Positions 8,431-22,782 of a stretch of 64,000 nucleotides of DNA are shown here, one piece after another. Location of the stretch: positions 434,001 to 498,000 of the forward strand of contig NZ_ARVX01000001.1 of assembly GCF_000384375.1 (NCBI RefSeq), given 5' to 3'. Position 1 is the first letter of the stretch, and every line of letters begins with the position of its first letter. Below the pieces are notes generated by a model. It was not told where the DNA came from and ran no database searches. It worked only from the letters and a program-made list of their open reading frames with translations. The stretch is from Methylotenera versatilis 79. Lineage in GTDB: Bacteria > Pseudomonadota > Gammaproteobacteria > Burkholderiales > Methylophilaceae. Both the position numbers and the translations under genes were made by a program.

Positions 8431-9231
8431 ATGATATTTACTCATCCAAAGTTCGACCCAGTTGCCATCCATTTCACCGATAGCTTCGGCATTCATTGGT
8501 ACGGATTAATGTACTTGATTGGTTTTTTGGCATTTTTAGGTTTAGGACGTTACCAGGTGAAACACAAACCTTGGTTTAATTGGTCGAATCAGATGATTGA
8601 TGATGCGTTATTTTATGGCGCATTAGGCGTGATATTAGGCGGCAGAATTGGTTATGTGCTGTTTTATCAGTTCTCTAGCTTTGTCGAGCATCCGTTGGAT
8701 ATTTTCAAAATATGGCAAGGCGGCATGAGTTTTCACGGCGGTTTTTTAGGCGTGCTGGTTGCCATGTTCTTTTTTACTAGAAAATATCCACAGCCTTGGT
8801 TAAAAATTATGGATTTTGTCGCGCCACTTGTGCCAATCGGTTTAGGCGCTGGGCGCATGGGCAATTTTATCAATGGCGAATTATGGGGCAGAACAACCAA
8901 TGCCAACTACGGCATGATTTTCCCACAAGCCGACATGCTTGCGCGCCACCCTTCTCAACTCTATGAGTTTGCGTTAGAAGGCATCGCCTTATTCTGCATT
9001 TTATGGTGGTTCTCACGCAAACAACGTCCGGTTGGCGCAATCTCAGCGCTATTTTTAATCGGCTATGGCAGCTTTAGATTCTTAGTCGAATTTACGCGTC
9101 AACCAGATGATTATTTAGGTCTGTTGCAGCTAGGTTTAAGCATGGGCCAATGGTTGAGTTTACCGATGATTTTAATCGGTATTTGGATGTGGCTTAAAAC
9201 GAAATCAGGTCGATTTAACGCAGCAACTTAA
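8431..9231 (+). CDS. lgt: Prolipoprotein diacylglyceryl transferase
   Basis: Lgt (266 residues) is a polytopic inner-membrane enzyme. It transfers diacylglyceryl from phosphatidylglycerol to the lipobox Cys of prolipoproteins, the first step of lipoprotein maturation. The Lgt signature [14 protein letters not shown] (about 147-160) and the essential His region HGGFLG (about 105-110) are present, and there are about seven hydrophobic segments. ATG 8431 has only a weak ribosome-binding site, but [15 protein letters not shown] is the usual Lgt N-terminus, so the start is good. Confidence 0.96.
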
Positions 9232-9360: not shown

Positions 9361-9376
9361 TGGCATGTTGATTGCA
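9361..9376 (+). promoter_or_regulatory. Sigma54 (-24/-12) promoter before a 59-residue ORF
   Basis: TGGCATGTTGATTGCA fits TGGCAYG-N4-TTGCA, with GG and GC exactly 12 bp apart. The predicted start is near 9387, leaving a 36-nt leader before ATG 9423. A small dyad AGTAC-TG-GTACT spans the start site. I found no NtrC-like palindrome upstream, so another enhancer-binding protein may be the activator. Confidence 0.65.
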
Positions 9377-14332: not shown

Positions 14333-14348
14333 TGGCATAGCCTTTGCT
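14333..14348 (+). promoter_or_regulatory. Sigma54 (-24/-12) promoter of nasT
   Basis: TGGCATAGCCTTTGCT has GG and GC 12 bp apart and fits TGGCAY-N5-TTGCW. The predicted start is near 14359, one base before ATG 14360. The promoter sits inside an imperfect dyad, with ATTGG and CATAGC facing GCTATG and CCAAT (14331-14358). Confidence 0.7.
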
Positions 14349-14359
14349 ATGTACCAATC

Positions 14360-14938
14360 ATGTTGAAGGTGATGATTGTTGATAATGACTTAATGCGTGT
14401 CAAACCATTAAAACAATCTTTGATTGATAATGGGTTTGAAGTGATTGCACATGTTGAAGATACCATCAATCTAGAAGCGAAATGTTGTGAAATTAAACCC
14501 GACATTGTGATTATTGATACCGATTCACCAACACGAGATACGCTGGAAAATATTTGTGTGTTGAGTATGCATGATGCGCGACCAGTGGTGATGTTTACCC
14601 ACGATGGTGACAAAGAAAAAATTAAGGCTGCTACGCAAGCGGGTGTAAGTGCTTATGTAGTAGGCGATATTTCAAGTGAAAGGCTAACACCTGTGATAGA
14701 TGCTGCGATAGCGAGATTTGAAGAGTTTAAAAATTTACGCACTGAATTAAACATTGCGAACACTAAGCTAGATGAGCGCAAAACGATTGAGCGCGCAAAA
14801 GGTTTGCTGATGAGACAGCGTATGTTAAATGAAGATGAGGCTTACAACCTACTGCGCAGTATGGCGATGAAAAAGAATATGAAGTTAGCGGATTTATCGC
14901 ATCAATTGAATGAAGCGGCAAAGATGTTGATTATTTAA
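14360..14938 (+). CDS. nasT: NasT-type response regulator with REC and ANTAR RNA-binding domains
   Basis: The 192-residue protein has an N-terminal receiver domain (1-120, beginning LKVMIVDND, with Asp53 in DIVIIDTDSP at the phospho-acceptor position). A short coiled segment follows, then a C-terminal ANTAR domain (about 130-190) with the hallmark ERAKGLLMRQR. NasT proteins bind two-hairpin leader RNA and prevent termination ahead of nitrate-assimilation genes; the nitrate sensor NasS normally holds NasT inactive. A matching leader lies just downstream (15022-15145). ATG 14360 makes the mRNA nearly leaderless under the sigma54 promoter; Met5 (14372) is an alternative start. No nasS is next to it. 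Confidence 0.92.
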   Translation: MLKVMIVDNDLMRVKPLKQSLIDNGFEVIAHVEDTINLEAKCCEIKPDIVIIDTDSPTRDTLENICVLSMHDARPVVMFTHDGDKEKIKAATQAGVSAYVVGDISSERLTPVIDAAIARFEEFKNLRTELNIANTKLDERKTIERAKGLLMRQRMLNEDEAYNLLRSMAMKKNMKLADLSHQLNEAAKMLII

Positions 14939-15021
14939 TTAACTGATCGATTAGTAAATTAAGTAAGTTTGTAGCAGAGATTTTGTAACACCGATTTGTA
15001 ATATTTAGTTTGTAGTAAATG

Positions 15022-15075
15022 CGCATGACCCAACGGTGGGTAATGCGATATTAAAATGATGCCAAAGTTGGCATC
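15022..15075 (+). promoter_or_regulatory. ANTAR-target tandem hairpins (P1 and P2) in the nrt leader
   Basis: Two hairpins are 10 nt apart. P1 (15022-15047) has stem CGCAT-ACCC / GGGT-ATGCG and hexaloop AACGGT. P2 (15058-15075) has stem GATGCC / GGCATC and hexaloop AAAGTT. Both loops carry A at position 1 and G at position 4, the known recognition rule for ANTAR proteins. They follow the nasT stop by 83 nt and precede the terminator by 17 nt. Confidence 0.85.
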
Positions 15076-15092
15076 AATAGAAAGAAAAAGAC

Positions 15093-15146
15093 AAAGACGT
15101 CTTAGTAGTGAGGTTTTAACCCTCATTGTTAAGGCGTCTTTTTTAT
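15093..15146 (+). terminator. Conditional leader terminator before nrtA
   Basis: A long stem (AAGACGTCTTA facing TAAGGCGTCTT with one G-U pair, plus an inner TGAGG/CCTCA stem) is followed by a run of T. Placed directly after the ANTAR hairpins, it is the expected attenuator that NasT overcomes. Confidence 0.85.
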
Positions 15147-15183
15147 TGGGTGAAACTTTTTGATGCAAAACTTTGGTTAAGGA

Positions 15184-16515
15184 ATGAATGTGCAAAATCA
15201 AGATGAATTAAAAAATACCACAGCTGTTATTGGCACAGGTGTTGATAGCAGTGTAAGCAAAATGGACACGTTAAATACTGACCGTCGGCAGTTTTTTAAA
15301 CACACCATCGCAGGTGCATTTGGAGCAGCGACCATGATGAATATCGTGCCAGCAGGCATTCAAAATATGGCGTATGCAGCGGGCAGCGATGCGCCAGAAA
15401 TCACTGAAGTCAAAATCGGTTTTATTCCTTTAACCGATTGCGCACCGATTGTAGTGGCGGCTGAGATGGGTTTTGATAAGAAATACGGCATTAAGATTAT
15501 TCCTGCTAAACAAGCCTCTTGGGCGGCGATTCGCGATAAAACCGTGAATGGCGAATTACACGCATCGCACGTGTTATACGGCTTGGTTTACGGCGTGCAG
15601 CTTGGCATTGGCGGACAGCAAAAAGACATGAAAGTGTTGATGAGTTTAAATAATAATGGCCAAGCCATTACCTTATCGAATCAACTAAAAGATAAAGGCG
15701 TGAAAGACGGAAAATCTCTTAAACGCGTGATGGCGAATGAAAACCGCGATTTTACTTTTGCACAGACATTTCCAACAGGCACACATGCCATGTGGCTTAA
15801 CTATTGGTTGGCAGCCAACGGTATTAACCCTGTAAAAGACATCAAAAATATCGTGGTACCGCCACCGCAAATGGTCGCCAATATGCGCATTGGCAATATG
15901 GATGGTTTCTGTGTGGGCGAGCCTTGGAATGCGCGTGCGATATACGACAAGCTTGGTTTCACTGTGACGACGACACAAGATATCTGGACCGATCATCCAG
16001 AAAAAGTATTAGGTACCACGGCTGAGTTTGTGGCGAAAAATCCGAATACAACACGCGCCATGATTGCCGCCATTTTGGATGCTTGCAAATATATCGATGC
16101 ATTGGAAAACCGCGCAAAAGTAGCAAAACTAATATCCGGTAAAGCGTATGTGAATACTACTGAAGAGGTGATTTCTGGTCGTTTTGTAGGTGATTACGAC
16201 GATGGTAATGGCAGAAAATATAAAGACCCTAATTACATGAAGTTCTATAACGATGGCGCAGTGAATTTCCCTTATCTATCAGACGGTATGTGGTTTTTAA
16301 CACAGCATAAACGCTGGGGCATGTTGAAAACTGACCCTGATTATCTGGGTGTTGCGACCAAAGTAAATGAAATCAAACTTTATTCTGAAGCAGCCAGCTT
16401 AGTTGGCGCGAGCATTCCTAAAGATGTGATGCGCAGCAGCAAACTGATGGATAACGTGGTGTGGGATGGTAAAAATCCAGCCGCCTATGCAGCGGGTTTT
16501 AAAATTAAAGCCTAA
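15184..16515 (+). CDS. nrtA: Nitrate ABC transporter substrate-binding protein (NrtA/CmpA family)
   Basis: The 443-residue periplasmic binding protein carries a twin-arginine signal (TDRRQFFKHTIAGAFG, Arg34-Arg35, then a hydrophobic stretch to about residue 65). The mature part has family motifs: VKIGFIPLTDCAPIVVAAEMG, SWAAIRDKTVNGELHASH, and MDGFCVGEPWNARA with the ligand-site Trp-Asn region. It captures nitrate, and perhaps nitrite, for NrtB and the ATPase. ATG 15184 is only one base after an AAGGA, so GTG 15190 with 6-nt spacing may be the true start. Because it is exported, it is unlikely to be the cytoplasmic sensor NasS, which is a signal-less relative. Confidence 0.92.
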   Translation: MNVQNQDELKNTTAVIGTGVDSSVSKMDTLNTDRRQFFKHTIAGAFGAATMMNIVPAGIQNMAYAAGSDAPEITEVKIGFIPLTDCAPIVVAAEMGFDKKYGIKIIPAKQASWAAIRDKTVNGELHASHVLYGLVYGVQLGIGGQQKDMKVLMSLNNNGQAITLSNQLKDKGVKDGKSLKRVMANENRDFTFAQTFPTGTHAMWLNYWLAANGINPVKDIKNIVVPPPQMVANMRIGNMDGFCVGEPWNARAIYDKLGFTVTTTQDIWTDHPEKVLGTTAEFVAKNPNTTRAMIAAILDACKYIDALENRAKVAKLISGKAYVNTTEEVISGRFVGDYDDGNGRKYKDPNYMKFYNDGAVNFPYLSDGMWFLTQHKRWGMLKTDPDYLGVATKVNEIKLYSEAASLVGASIPKDVMRSSKLMDNVVWDGKNPAAYAAGFKIKA

Positions 16516-16577
16516 CTTAAGTTAGTGGCGATTTAAGCACTTAAGTGAATGCAAATTTTAATGACCCTTGTGAGCAT

Positions 16578-16616
16578 CACCCGAAGATTGTCAGTATCCC
16601 CTGCAATTTTCGGGTG
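16578..16616 (+). other. Intercistronic hairpin between nrtA and nrtB
   Basis: CACCCGAA pairs with TTCGGGTG, with an inner ATTG-CAG / CTG-CAAT stem and a short loop. There is no T-tract, so it is probably an mRNA processing or 3'-protecting structure rather than a terminator; it could raise binding protein over permease. Confidence 0.5.
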
Positions 16617-16661
16617 AAGCAAACAAATGTGGCAACTATTCAATGCAAAAAGGAGCGCAAC

Positions 16662-17609
16662 ATGAGCGCAGTCAATAGTAATAAAGACTTAAACCTGCAA
16701 GACAGTTTAACGGATGTTAGCAATGAGAATGTTGCAGATAAACTCGTCGCGGCTAATGAAGATAACACTCACATGAAAATGTTAAACAGAAAAAACAAGT
16801 CAAAAACCCGTGCAGCTAAAATAAAAACCCCAGGCCAACTCAAAAGAAACGAGTTTTTTAAAATAATTATTCCACCTGCATTTGGCATTTTACTATTCTT
16901 AGCTGTTTGGACTTTAATCTCGCATTTGCAACCCGTGATGCCCGGCCCAGTCAGCACATGGCATTCTGCGGTGGAGTTATTTGCACATCCTTTCCACCAA
17001 AATAGCTTGGATGACCAAGGCATTGGCTGGAACATTCTTTCATCTTTAGAACGCGTGGCATTGGGCTTTGGCTTAGCTGCATTAGTTGGTATTCCGCTGG
17101 GCTTTATGATTGGCCGTTTTGAATTTATATCACGCATGACAGCACCCGTCATCGGTCTGCTACGCCCGGTTTCACCGCTCGCCTGGTTGCCATTGGGTTT
17201 GTTGGTGCTTAAAGCCGCTGGCCCAGCCGCAATCTGGGTGATCTTTATATCGAGTATTTGGCCAATGGTCATTAATACAGCGGTCGGTGTCAGCAAAGTG
17301 CCGCAAGACTATATGAACGTCGCCAAAGTGCTGAATTTAAGTGAATGGAAAATCATATCTAAAATCTCATTCCCTTATGTATTGCCTTACATGATGACTG
17401 GCGTGCGCCTTTCAATCGGCATCGCTTGGCTAGTGATTGTGGCGGCAGAAATGCTCAACGGCGGTGCAGGTATTGGTTTCTGGTTATGGGATGAATACAA
17501 CGCCTCTAACTACGAACACATCATTATCGCGATTTTTATTGTCGGCATCGTCGGCTTGTTGCTTGAACTAGGTTTGACTGCAATCGCTAACCGTTTTAAT
17601 TACGAATAA
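16662..17609 (+). CDS. nrtB: Nitrate ABC transporter permease
   Basis: ATG 16662 follows an AAGGAG at 16650-16654 and gives 315 residues; the reading frame is open further upstream, but no earlier start has such a site. The first 60 residues are hydrophilic and Lys-rich, longer than in cyanobacterial NrtB. Six or so transmembrane helices follow, with the EAA-type coupling loop around WKIISKISFPYVLPYMMTGVRLS near residue 240. It forms the nitrate channel with the ATPase encoded next, 11 bp downstream. Confidence 0.93.
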   Translation: MSAVNSNKDLNLQDSLTDVSNENVADKLVAANEDNTHMKMLNRKNKSKTRAAKIKTPGQLKRNEFFKIIIPPAFGILLFLAVWTLISHLQPVMPGPVSTWHSAVELFAHPFHQNSLDDQGIGWNILSSLERVALGFGLAALVGIPLGFMIGRFEFISRMTAPVIGLLRPVSPLAWLPLGLLVLKAAGPAAIWVIFISSIWPMVINTAVGVSKVPQDYMNVAKVLNLSEWKIISKISFPYVLPYMMTGVRLSIGIAWLVIVAAEMLNGGAGIGFWLWDEYNASNYEHIIIAIFIVGIVGLLLELGLTAIANRFNYE

Positions 17610-17620
17610 GGGATAAGCAA

Positions 17621-18469
17621 ATGTCTAATATTTCACACGAAAAAAATCATACCGATGGCTATAAAGTGACCAAAAAAATCACTGAACGCTATGTAGAAAT
17701 TGAAGATGTCGGCATGCGCTTTGTCAGCAAAAAAGGCGAATTTGAGGCATTAAAACACGTTAACTTAAGCATCACACAAGGTGAATTTATATCAATAATC
17801 GGTCACTCAGGTTGCGGAAAATCAACGGTGCTGAATTTAATCGCTGGTTTATTGCATCCCACTAGCGGCAATCTGTTTTGTGCGGGACGCGAGATTGCTG
17901 CGCCTGGTCCAGAGCGTGCGGTTGTGTTTCAAAATCATTCTTTACTACCGTGGTTGAACTGTTATGAGAACGTCTATTTAGCAGTTGAACGGGTATTTGG
18001 CAGTGAATCGAAAGTGCAACAAGAAGCGCGTACTTACGCTGCGCTAGATCTAGTTGGCTTGGGTCACGCCGTTGAAAAACGTCCGAATGAAATATCTGGT
18101 GGCATGAAGCAACGCGTAGGTATTGCCAGAGCATTGGCGATGGAACCAAAAGTGTTATTACTGGATGAGCCATTTGGCGCACTGGATGCATTAACCCGCG
18201 CAGGCTTGCAAGATGAACTGATGAAAATCATGCAGAAATCTGGCGCAACCGCGGTGATGGTGACGCACGATGTAGATGAAGCCGTATTGTTATCAGACCG
18301 AATCGTGATGATGACCAACGGCCCAAGCGCGACCATTGGTGAAATTCTCACTGTCGATTTACCGTATCCACGCAAACGTCTTGAGTTGGCTGAAGACAAG
18401 CAATACAACCATTTACGTTCTGAAGTATTGAAATTTTTATACGAACGCCACGCCAAAAAAGCGGCTTAG
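17621..18469 (+). CDS. Nitrate ABC transporter ATP-binding protein (NrtD-type, single domain)
   Basis: The 282-residue cytoplasmic ATPase has Walker A GHSGCGKST near residue 63, Q-loop FQNHSLLPW, signature SGGMKQR near 158, Walker B VLLLDEPFGALD near 175 and H-loop THDVDE. It belongs to the nitrate/taurine/sulfonate group that energises NrtB. The length matches NrtD; it lacks the C-terminal NrtA-like regulatory domain of cyanobacterial NrtC, so nitrate inhibition through that domain is not expected. It starts 11 bp after nrtB and has no terminator behind it. Confidence 0.93.
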   Translation: MSNISHEKNHTDGYKVTKKITERYVEIEDVGMRFVSKKGEFEALKHVNLSITQGEFISIIGHSGCGKSTVLNLIAGLLHPTSGNLFCAGREIAAPGPERAVVFQNHSLLPWLNCYENVYLAVERVFGSESKVQQEARTYAALDLVGLGHAVEKRPNEISGGMKQRVGIARALAMEPKVLLLDEPFGALDALTRAGLQDELMKIMQKSGATAVMVTHDVDEAVLLSDRIVMMTNGPSATIGEILTVDLPYPRKRLELAEDKQYNHLRSEVLKFLYERHAKKAA

Positions 18470-20023: not shown

Positions 20024-20038
20024 AGCTTGGCCACGCTG

Positions 20039-20085
20039 CGCACTGTTTTGGTTCATCAAAATAGTGTGCTTGCTGTTTTGGTGCA
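20039..20085 (+). promoter_or_regulatory. Tandem NtrC-like sites upstream of nirB
   Basis: The site at 20039-20055 (CGCACTGTTTTGGTTCA) matches 14 of 17 positions of the strong glnAp2 NtrC site. The site at 20069-20085 (CTTGCTGTTTTGGTGCA) matches 12 of 17 with a perfect right half. Their centres are 30 bp apart, on the same DNA face, about 147 and 117 bp before the predicted start. Confidence 0.65.
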
Positions 20086-22681: not shown

Positions 22682-22714
22682 AACATTATTAGTTTAAACA
22701 GTTAAAAATCCTCA

Positions 22715-22752
22715 TCACAGAAAGCGCAGTAACCATACTGCGCTTTCTGTGA
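22715..22752 (+). other. Perfect 17-bp hairpin between nirB and the nitrate transporter
   Basis: The arms TCACAGAAAGCGCAGTA and TACTGCGCTTTCTGTGA pair without mismatch around loop ACCA. No T-tract follows. It is likely an RNA-stability or partial-termination element between the first two genes of the operon. Confidence 0.6.
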
Positions 22753-22782
22753 CTGAAAATAAATCACATTGGGAATAAACAA

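Follow-up and report, generated by a model that had tools for sequence, protein, structure and literature searches.

The leader between nasT and nrtA in Methylotenera versatilis 79 very probably governs the nitrate importer genes nrtABC by NasT-dependent antitermination, in which upstream recruitment loops feed a further hairpin, P3, that shares its sequence with an intrinsic terminator. This leader is housed in the 246-nt gap between the two genes, within the 64-kb stretch of DNA analysed here (the window), which is itself part of a one-contig, 2.60-Mb genome scored as 100% complete. A first-pass annotation of the same DNA had placed an ANTAR-type antitermination leader between a NasT-type REC-ANTAR gene and nrtABC, and we retain that reading, with loops that recur in relatives. 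Binding of NasT, antitermination and a response to nitrate are what published relatives of the system would lead us to expect.

The nasT-nrtABC locus

The nasT gene (14360-14938, plus strand) encodes a 192-residue REC-ANTAR protein (Pfam ANTAR, 8.8e-18; Response_reg, 6.6e-11), the domain arrangement of NasT in NasS-NasT systems, and its best named relative is the NasT of Methylotenera versatilis 7 (94%). A profile search of the organism's own genome returned it as the sole ANTAR match at E 0.001, so the one ANTAR protein found in the genome that contains the element is also the one that adjoins the leader. On the same strand follow nrtA (15184-16515), which encodes a 443-residue nitrate-binding protein (Pfam NMT1_2, 2e-107) with a Tat-like motif, DRRQFF, called by our own pattern only; the permease gene nrtB (16545-17609; BPD_transp_1); and the ATPase gene nrtC (17621-18469; ABC_tran). 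Pfam matches identify the genes after nrtC as those for a porin-like protein (Alginate_exp), a protein resembling NirB and an MFS transporter. More terminator-like hairpins, without pairs of ANTAR loops, occur among the porin-like gene, nirB and the MFS gene (20038-20069 and 22714-22753).

A full match to the sigma-54 promoter pattern, TGGCATAGCCTTTGCT, stands ahead of nasT at 14333-14348 on the plus strand. The window contains two full matches to this pattern, against 0.12 expected; the second, at 9361-9376 on the plus strand, lies behind an open reading frame at 8431-9231. Across 46 distinct nasT regions, the window's included, the site ahead of nasT is present in 44, of which 43 agree at 16 of 16 positions and one at 15, and the distance from the start of the site to the start codon is 26-28 nt in 16 regions and 48-64 nt in 28. 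Because the window's site ends so near the ATG, the nasT transcript is expected to begin with the ATG itself or about one base upstream, as a leaderless mRNA. With the site conserved in this way, initiation would answer to nitrogen need and elongation to NasT. A link between this promoter and NtrC is suggested by Paracoccus denitrificans, in which an NtrC site ahead of nasT matters (PMC5424462, in excerpt).

Three hexaloop hairpins in the leader

The leader contains three small hairpins, all on the plus strand. P1 (15022-15047) presents the loop AACGGU at 15032-15037 on an inner stem that pairs 15028-15031 with 15038-15041, P2 (15057-15076) presents AAAGUU at 15064-15069, and P3 (15088-15103) holds AAAGAC at 15093-15098 between the arms AAGAC and GUCUU. 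Each loop has A at position 1 and G at position 4, and with stems of 4, 7 and 5 bp, respectively, and C-G closing pairs, the three hairpins have the form of ANTAR-target RNA, namely two or more small hexaloop hairpins with A1 and G4 on stems of at least 3 bp. Such RNA is described with two hairpins only, though this is not required, and here there are three. The linkers are short, at 9 nt between P1 and P2 and 11 nt between P2 and P3.

These structures lie far beyond chance. Hexaloop hairpins with A1 and G4, closed by C-G on at least 4 bp, occur three times in the nasT-nrtA gap, a number reached in none of 20,000 dinucleotide shuffles. The whole 64-kb window contains 14 such hairpins on the plus strand and 13 on the minus strand, and solely in this leader do they fall within 60 nt of each other. 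In addition, the fold of 15000-15160 has a z score of -7.66, with none of 200 shuffles equally stable. The two hexaloop hairpins named in the first-pass annotation, P1 and P2, are therefore real, and the strong terminator that it had put some 17 nt past P2 begins after a gap that we measured at 16-17 nt. P3, a hairpin of the same kind with a 5-bp stem, was absent from its list.

Whether the loops stand open in the RNA is less uniform. The energy model, applied to the window's own sequence, adds an A1-U6 pair that turns the loops of P1 and P2 into tetraloops, a correction to the two hexaloops claimed earlier. Among 36 aligned leaders, however, loop position 6 is unable to pair with A1 in 23 for P1 (C in 17, A in 6; U in 13), in 16 for P2 (C in 8, A in 7, G in 1; U in 20) and in 33 for P3 (C in 33; U in 3). 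By this measure the alignment supports an open hexaloop well in P1 and P3, whereas the case for P2 is less clear.

P3 and the terminator are mutually exclusive

The intrinsic terminator (15093-15145, plus strand) has a stem running from about 15093 to 15141, with 20 pairs counted, 7 of them GC, and a U run at 15139-15144. Its 5' arm begins with the loop and 3' arm of P3, the 5' arm of P3 lying outside it, and because the two structures draw on the same bases only one of them can form at a time. Folding of the nascent chain follows this exchange as the RNA lengthens: P3 forms with a probability of 0.88-0.997 for 3' ends at 15102-15114, falls to 0.06-0.31 against a transient rival at 15116-15122, is back at 0.85-0.996 for 3' ends at 15124-15132, drops to 0.26 at 15134, and from 15136 onwards has a probability of 0, with the terminator standing alone. 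Read-through would follow if a protein kept P3 folded over this span. As P3 is weak (-3.2 kcal/mol) compared with the terminator and is outcompeted at 15116-15122, NasT would have to act fast.

Overlap between an ANTAR hairpin and the terminator, as in published elements, is thus found for P3 and not for P2. The first-pass annotation had noticed that P2 does not overlap the terminator and had concluded that the mechanism may differ from the Enterococcus model. The overlapping hairpin is P3, which it had missed, and with P3 in place this doubt disappears. A 12-base P3-like pattern hit 17 places, versus 52 for its reversed control, and is hence uninformative.

In the mechanism that we propose, the sigma-54 promoter would transcribe nasT and then the leader, and by default the RNA would fold the terminator at 15093-15141 and transcription would stop before nrtA. 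Once active, NasT would bind P1, P2 or both through their A1/G4 loops as soon as these have been transcribed, and then P3, which would tie up the 5' arm of the terminator until polymerase has passed the U run, allowing nrtABC to be made. P2 and P3, with the 11-nt linker between them, would be the counterpart of the known two-hairpin element, and P1 would serve as an extra recruitment loop.

Conservation across nasT leaders

The comparison covers 46 distinct regions downstream of nasT genes, including that of the window. A P3-type hairpin followed by a terminator is present in 44 of them; the exceptions are L066, in which a NasS-like gene lies 49 nt behind nasT, and L063, in which nrtA does not adjoin nasT. 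With these two left out, the set of 44 leaders consists of 43 whose NasT is at least 64% identical, together with L065 at 50%. Rows of a 36-leader alignment had to show A1 and G4, closure by C-G and 3 paired bases. The alignment leaves out L018, L019, L020, L027 and L055 (no full triplet) as well as L030-L032 (P1 and P2 more than 60 nt apart), while P3 itself was located by a rule that demands G-purine-C before the loop and GT behind it. Because the rows and P3 were picked by rule, the constancy of these letters is built in, as is some of the pairing.

Across the 44 leaders, each of the four counted P3 pairs is a standard base pair throughout (176 of 176 cells), compared with 29.5-53.4% for slid partners; two of the four pairs are invariant and one varies on one side only. 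As the location rule fixes some P3 letters, the telling rows are the seven leaders in which the outer counted pair is G-C rather than A-U, and every one of them has G instead of A as the 3' partner in the terminator (L048 and L052, which were ended at an inner T run, have empty terminator columns in this comparison). For P1, P2 and P3 together the 36 leaders give a covariation score of 0.404, against 0.187 when shuffled and at most 0.099 when slid, with two-sided changes in 3 of the 4 counted pairs of P1 and 6 of the 7 pairs of P2.

Since the alignment rows were chosen by rule, two unselected checks were run for P1 and P2. RNAalifold, given 14 whole gaps with no base-by-base selection of hairpins, recovered P1 and P2, each with an open hexaloop, as well as the terminator. 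Furthermore, the first 250 nt of the 46 regions contain 226 hexaloop hairpins with stems of 5 bp or longer, of which 106 belong to the A1/G4 class, versus 8.3 expected, and no other hexaloop class rises above about twice background. The first-pass annotation had staked its case on loops with A1 and G4 being conserved in related genomes, and there they are found again.

Number and spacing of the loops

Three loops on stems of 3 bp or more occur in 39 of the 44 leaders, and the other 5 fall short of this. Under a stricter rule (4 bp, no more than 110 nt ahead of P3) two upstream loops are present in 26 of the 44 and one in 18. Among 35 leaders from other families, the same rule finds two upstream loops in 7, one in 25 and none in 3, and among 19 NasR-side leaders from the window's own family it finds none in 6, one in 11, two in 1 and three in 1. 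Judged by these sequence counts across the three leader sets, a second upstream loop prevails beside NasT in Methylophilaceae and recurs elsewhere.

The composition of the two further sets bears on how these counts are read. The other-family leaders come from 39 of 44 loci, the remaining five (L071, L074, L077, L078 and L080) being of the window's own family, and were reduced to 35 by dropping L200, L204, L212 and L214, which have no P3 with a terminator; within the counts P3 is misplaced in L198, where two upstream loops are seen, and L199 and L217 are included with an unclear P3 at the match. The 19 NasR-side loci are from same-family genomes and have their ANTAR match inside a long open frame of about 424-466 aa; the NIT domain was checked in two such proteins (L080, L063), and some of the ANTAR genes are kilobases from nrtA. 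The 11 single loops on the NasR side lie 56-101 nt ahead of P3, and in many of these leaders other hairpins fold in between.

The linker between P2 and P3 is also variable. Of the 41 leaders that have a P2, 26 have a linker of 13-19 nt, with five leaders each at under 5 nt, at 5-12 nt and at 29-34 nt, and in four of the five longest (L042, L047, L018 and L054) a further hairpin folds within it; the linker of L064 is 15 nt. The eut linker measures 5-12 nt, with one of 14 nt impairing eutP (excerpts of PMC3369931), and an actinobacterial survey accepts linkers of 2-25 nt (PMC8164766, in excerpt). Both linkers of the window's leader fall inside the eut range. The looser spacing in relatives speaks against simply equating the element with that of eut.

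It is possible, if not what we expect, that the leader is an ordinary two-loop element, in which P2 and P3 work with NasT and P1 is a dispensable hairpin, concerned with stability or pausing, that carries A1 and G4 by chance. The 25 of 35 other-family leaders with a single upstream loop, most of them with that loop 21-33 nt from P3, are consistent with such a reading, as are the five of 44 nasT leaders that fail the three-loop rule at 3 bp. However, P1 covaries and was recovered without selection, and the second upstream loop recurs in 7 of the 35 leaders from other families, all of which speaks against this reading.

A connection between the third loop and the loss of NasS was considered and rejected: a single upstream loop is present in L070, L072 and L076, which are arranged nasT-leader-nrtA, and two are present in L075 despite its NasS-type gene, while the second upstream loop of L069 may be coding.

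Relationship to narK RNA

The covariance-model search against Rfam that the first-pass annotation had recommended gave no clean call. Nothing in the window matched at the gathering score, and the best match under relaxed conditions was RF03032, narK RNA, at 26.4 bits, below its gathering score of 43.2, which places the leader outside the family by that measure. The 13 other relaxed matches were to microRNA, snoRNA and unrelated families, all below their cut-offs, and were treated as chance. In the alignment, P2 falls on the single annotated hairpin of narK RNA and P3 on the unpaired 3' end of that RNA, CGACAAAGACGUCGC; in the Rfam structure, however, P3 is not paired, and the region of P1 is unpaired in the model.

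Matches to RF03032 were found in 16 of 199 relatives, none of them above the cut-off, and in 29 of 369 genomes of the class, two of which pass it. At both passing loci (L190 and L191) the hexaloop hairpin is accompanied by P3 and by a terminator that draws on the P3 arm. A loose script rule finds a P3-type hairpin and terminator in 35 of 39 RF03032 matches, although these loci were found by family similarity, which fixes some of the P3 letters in advance. Many of the loci have NasT-like matches in the flanking DNA that was retrieved with them. On the strength of the P3 and terminator structures at the passing and tested loci, and of the NasT-like matches nearby, narK RNA (RF03032; L067-L081 and L190-L218) is probably this same ANTAR element, a target of NasT or NasR whose antiterminator hairpin has been left unannotated. 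Our literature search found no paper naming narK RNA. A covariance-model search of the organism's own genome found one element, at 70.8 bits, the next match scoring 22.0 bits (E 0.83).

NasT without a recognizable NasS

The NasS of P. denitrificans keeps hold of NasT and lets it go when nitrate or nitrite is bound (PMC3795266, in excerpt). NasS is a nitrate-binding protein that lacks a signal peptide, and no such protein was found in the organism's own genome, in which the sole NMT1_2 match at E 0.001 is NrtA with its Tat-like motif. A NIT-domain protein, as expected of a NasR (NIT-ANTAR) system, was likewise not found in this genome by a search that succeeds in the relatives G055 and G068. 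The statement in the first-pass annotation that nitrate or nitrite "frees" NasT is therefore unsupported, as the genome search gave no NasS gene. This result also counts against our own preferred explanation, which is left with the known nitrate trigger for NasT missing. Phosphorylation of NasT is unlikely, since in all 23 NasT rows the AYVV-x stretch, which we take to be the place of the receiver lysine, lacks a lysine.

A tree of 74 distinct NrtA/NasS proteins (FastTree, midpoint-rooted, support values not shown) puts the signal-free proteins L128, L197, L216, L066 and L075 in a clade of their own, and the NrtA of the window groups among the Tat-bearing proteins. Four other proteins without the Tat pattern fall elsewhere in the tree, and one of these, L194, has a slightly different twin-arginine motif. 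L128 (G020:C1:626500-631500) consists of a second nasT followed by a signal-free NasS-like gene, in addition to the nasT-leader-nrtA locus of the same genome; the idea that this NasS is a recent copy of NrtA was rejected, as it groups with the other signal-free proteins. In L026 (genome G068) and L063, a 435-aa NIT-ANTAR gene is preceded by a nasT-like stretch that an in-frame stop interrupts, leaving ORFs of 83 and 116 aa in L063, and judging from these remnants it looks as if NasR had replaced NasT.

An elaboration of the proposed mechanism, which we regard as doubtful, would have NasT relayed from P1 to P2 to P3 as each emerges, thereby better catching the terminator, with NasT switched without NasS, perhaps by NrtA, the transporter's binding protein, which the same operon encodes. 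The narrower suggestion that NrtA, as an unexported precursor or cytosolic form, holds NasT until nitrate binds is unlikely. NasS and NrtA are related (PMC3795266, in excerpt), nrtA is directly downstream of nasT, and the genome has no other NMT1_2 match and no NIT-domain match, the latter with a positive control in two relatives; moreover, a protein partner is likely given the 23 NasT rows without the expected lysine. Nevertheless, a sensory role for NrtA is a guess, the NasS proteins group apart from the Tat-bearing NrtA proteins, and one member of the family, G020, carries a nasT-nasS pair alongside its nasT-leader-nrtA locus.

Discussion

The mechanism implied by the first-pass annotation, in which P1 and P2 form the whole NasT site and termination is blocked without an overlapping antiterminator, is highly improbable. 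Taken singly, P1 (-14.0 kcal/mol) and P2 (-11.7 kcal/mol) are more stable than P3 (-3.2 kcal/mol), and in the folds they can form together with the terminator. However, the 5' arm of P3 lies outside the terminator and yet stays paired in 44 of 44 leaders, changing together with its partner, and P3 resembles the known second hairpin in both form and place. Highly improbable as well is a plain terminator behind nasT, with nrtABC under its own promoter and NasT acting elsewhere: a strong terminator does close nasT and our pattern scan leaves room for a promoter of another type between 15146 and 15184, but neither a sigma-70-like match nor either of the window's two sigma-54 sites falls in that interval, and the conserved ANTAR loops would be purposeless there, the next element in the genome having an E value of 0.83.

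Antitermination by NasT through P3 is consistent with the published model, in which the second hairpin is hidden at the 5' base of the terminator (excerpts of PMC3369931, Ramesh et al., and PMC3369936, Stewart and van Tilbeurgh). According to the same excerpts, the eut (Enterococcus faecalis, EutV), nasF (Klebsiella, NasR) and amiE (AmiR) leaders likewise have small A1/G4 hexaloop hairpins, the last of them hidden at this position, and NasR selects a C-G closing pair (PMC7496416, in excerpt). Those leaders have two loops, whereas three stand in series here, and the spacing among relatives of the window is looser than that of eut. The nasA leader of P. denitrificans and the nosR leader of Bradyrhizobium similarly combine NasT with a leader ahead of nitrogen-oxide genes (excerpts of PMC5424462 and PMC6759348), but both systems carry NasS, none of which was found here, and for P. 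denitrificans the excerpted text names two hairpins, HI and HII (PMC5424462). Recruitment followed by a hand-over is also known from EutV, whose dimer binds the first hairpin and passes to the terminator hairpin (PMC8934654, in excerpt); in the present leader, by comparison, two possible recruitment hairpins precede P3.

Two hairpins, or HI and HII, are what the excerpts of PMC3369931, PMC3369936, PMC7496416, PMC5424462, PMC8164766 and PMC8934654 describe. The main texts of PMC7496416, PMC3369931 and PMC5424462 do not contain the phrase "three hairpin", and our search of the open-access literature for three hairpins or stem-loops in connection with ANTAR or NasT found no such wording among the papers listed. 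NasT antitermination is known in principle, and what is new in this leader is its build, with three loops and without the known sensor.

Elements of this kind were also seen at other loci. In one genome (G052; L124, L125 and L126) three further elements made up of a loop, P3 and a terminator lie ahead of a CheW protein gene (with a Cache match below the cut-off), ahead of genes for a PilJ-Hpt-HATPase protein with a receiver and for CheX, and ahead of a PAS-GGDEF-EAL protein gene. A single element with a loop, P3 and a terminator lies ahead of an EAL protein gene in G106 (L127). Going by these positions, NasT may control taxis and cyclic-di-GMP genes in the two genomes.

An ANTAR dimer may either bridge two loops simultaneously or hop from a recruitment loop to the antitermination loop (PMC8934654, in excerpt). 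A natural three-loop leader provides a ready test of these models, as simple bridging needs no third loop and hopping could use one. In addition, a NasT without NasS raises the question of how nitrate is sensed in Methylotenera, whose members use both methanol and nitrate.
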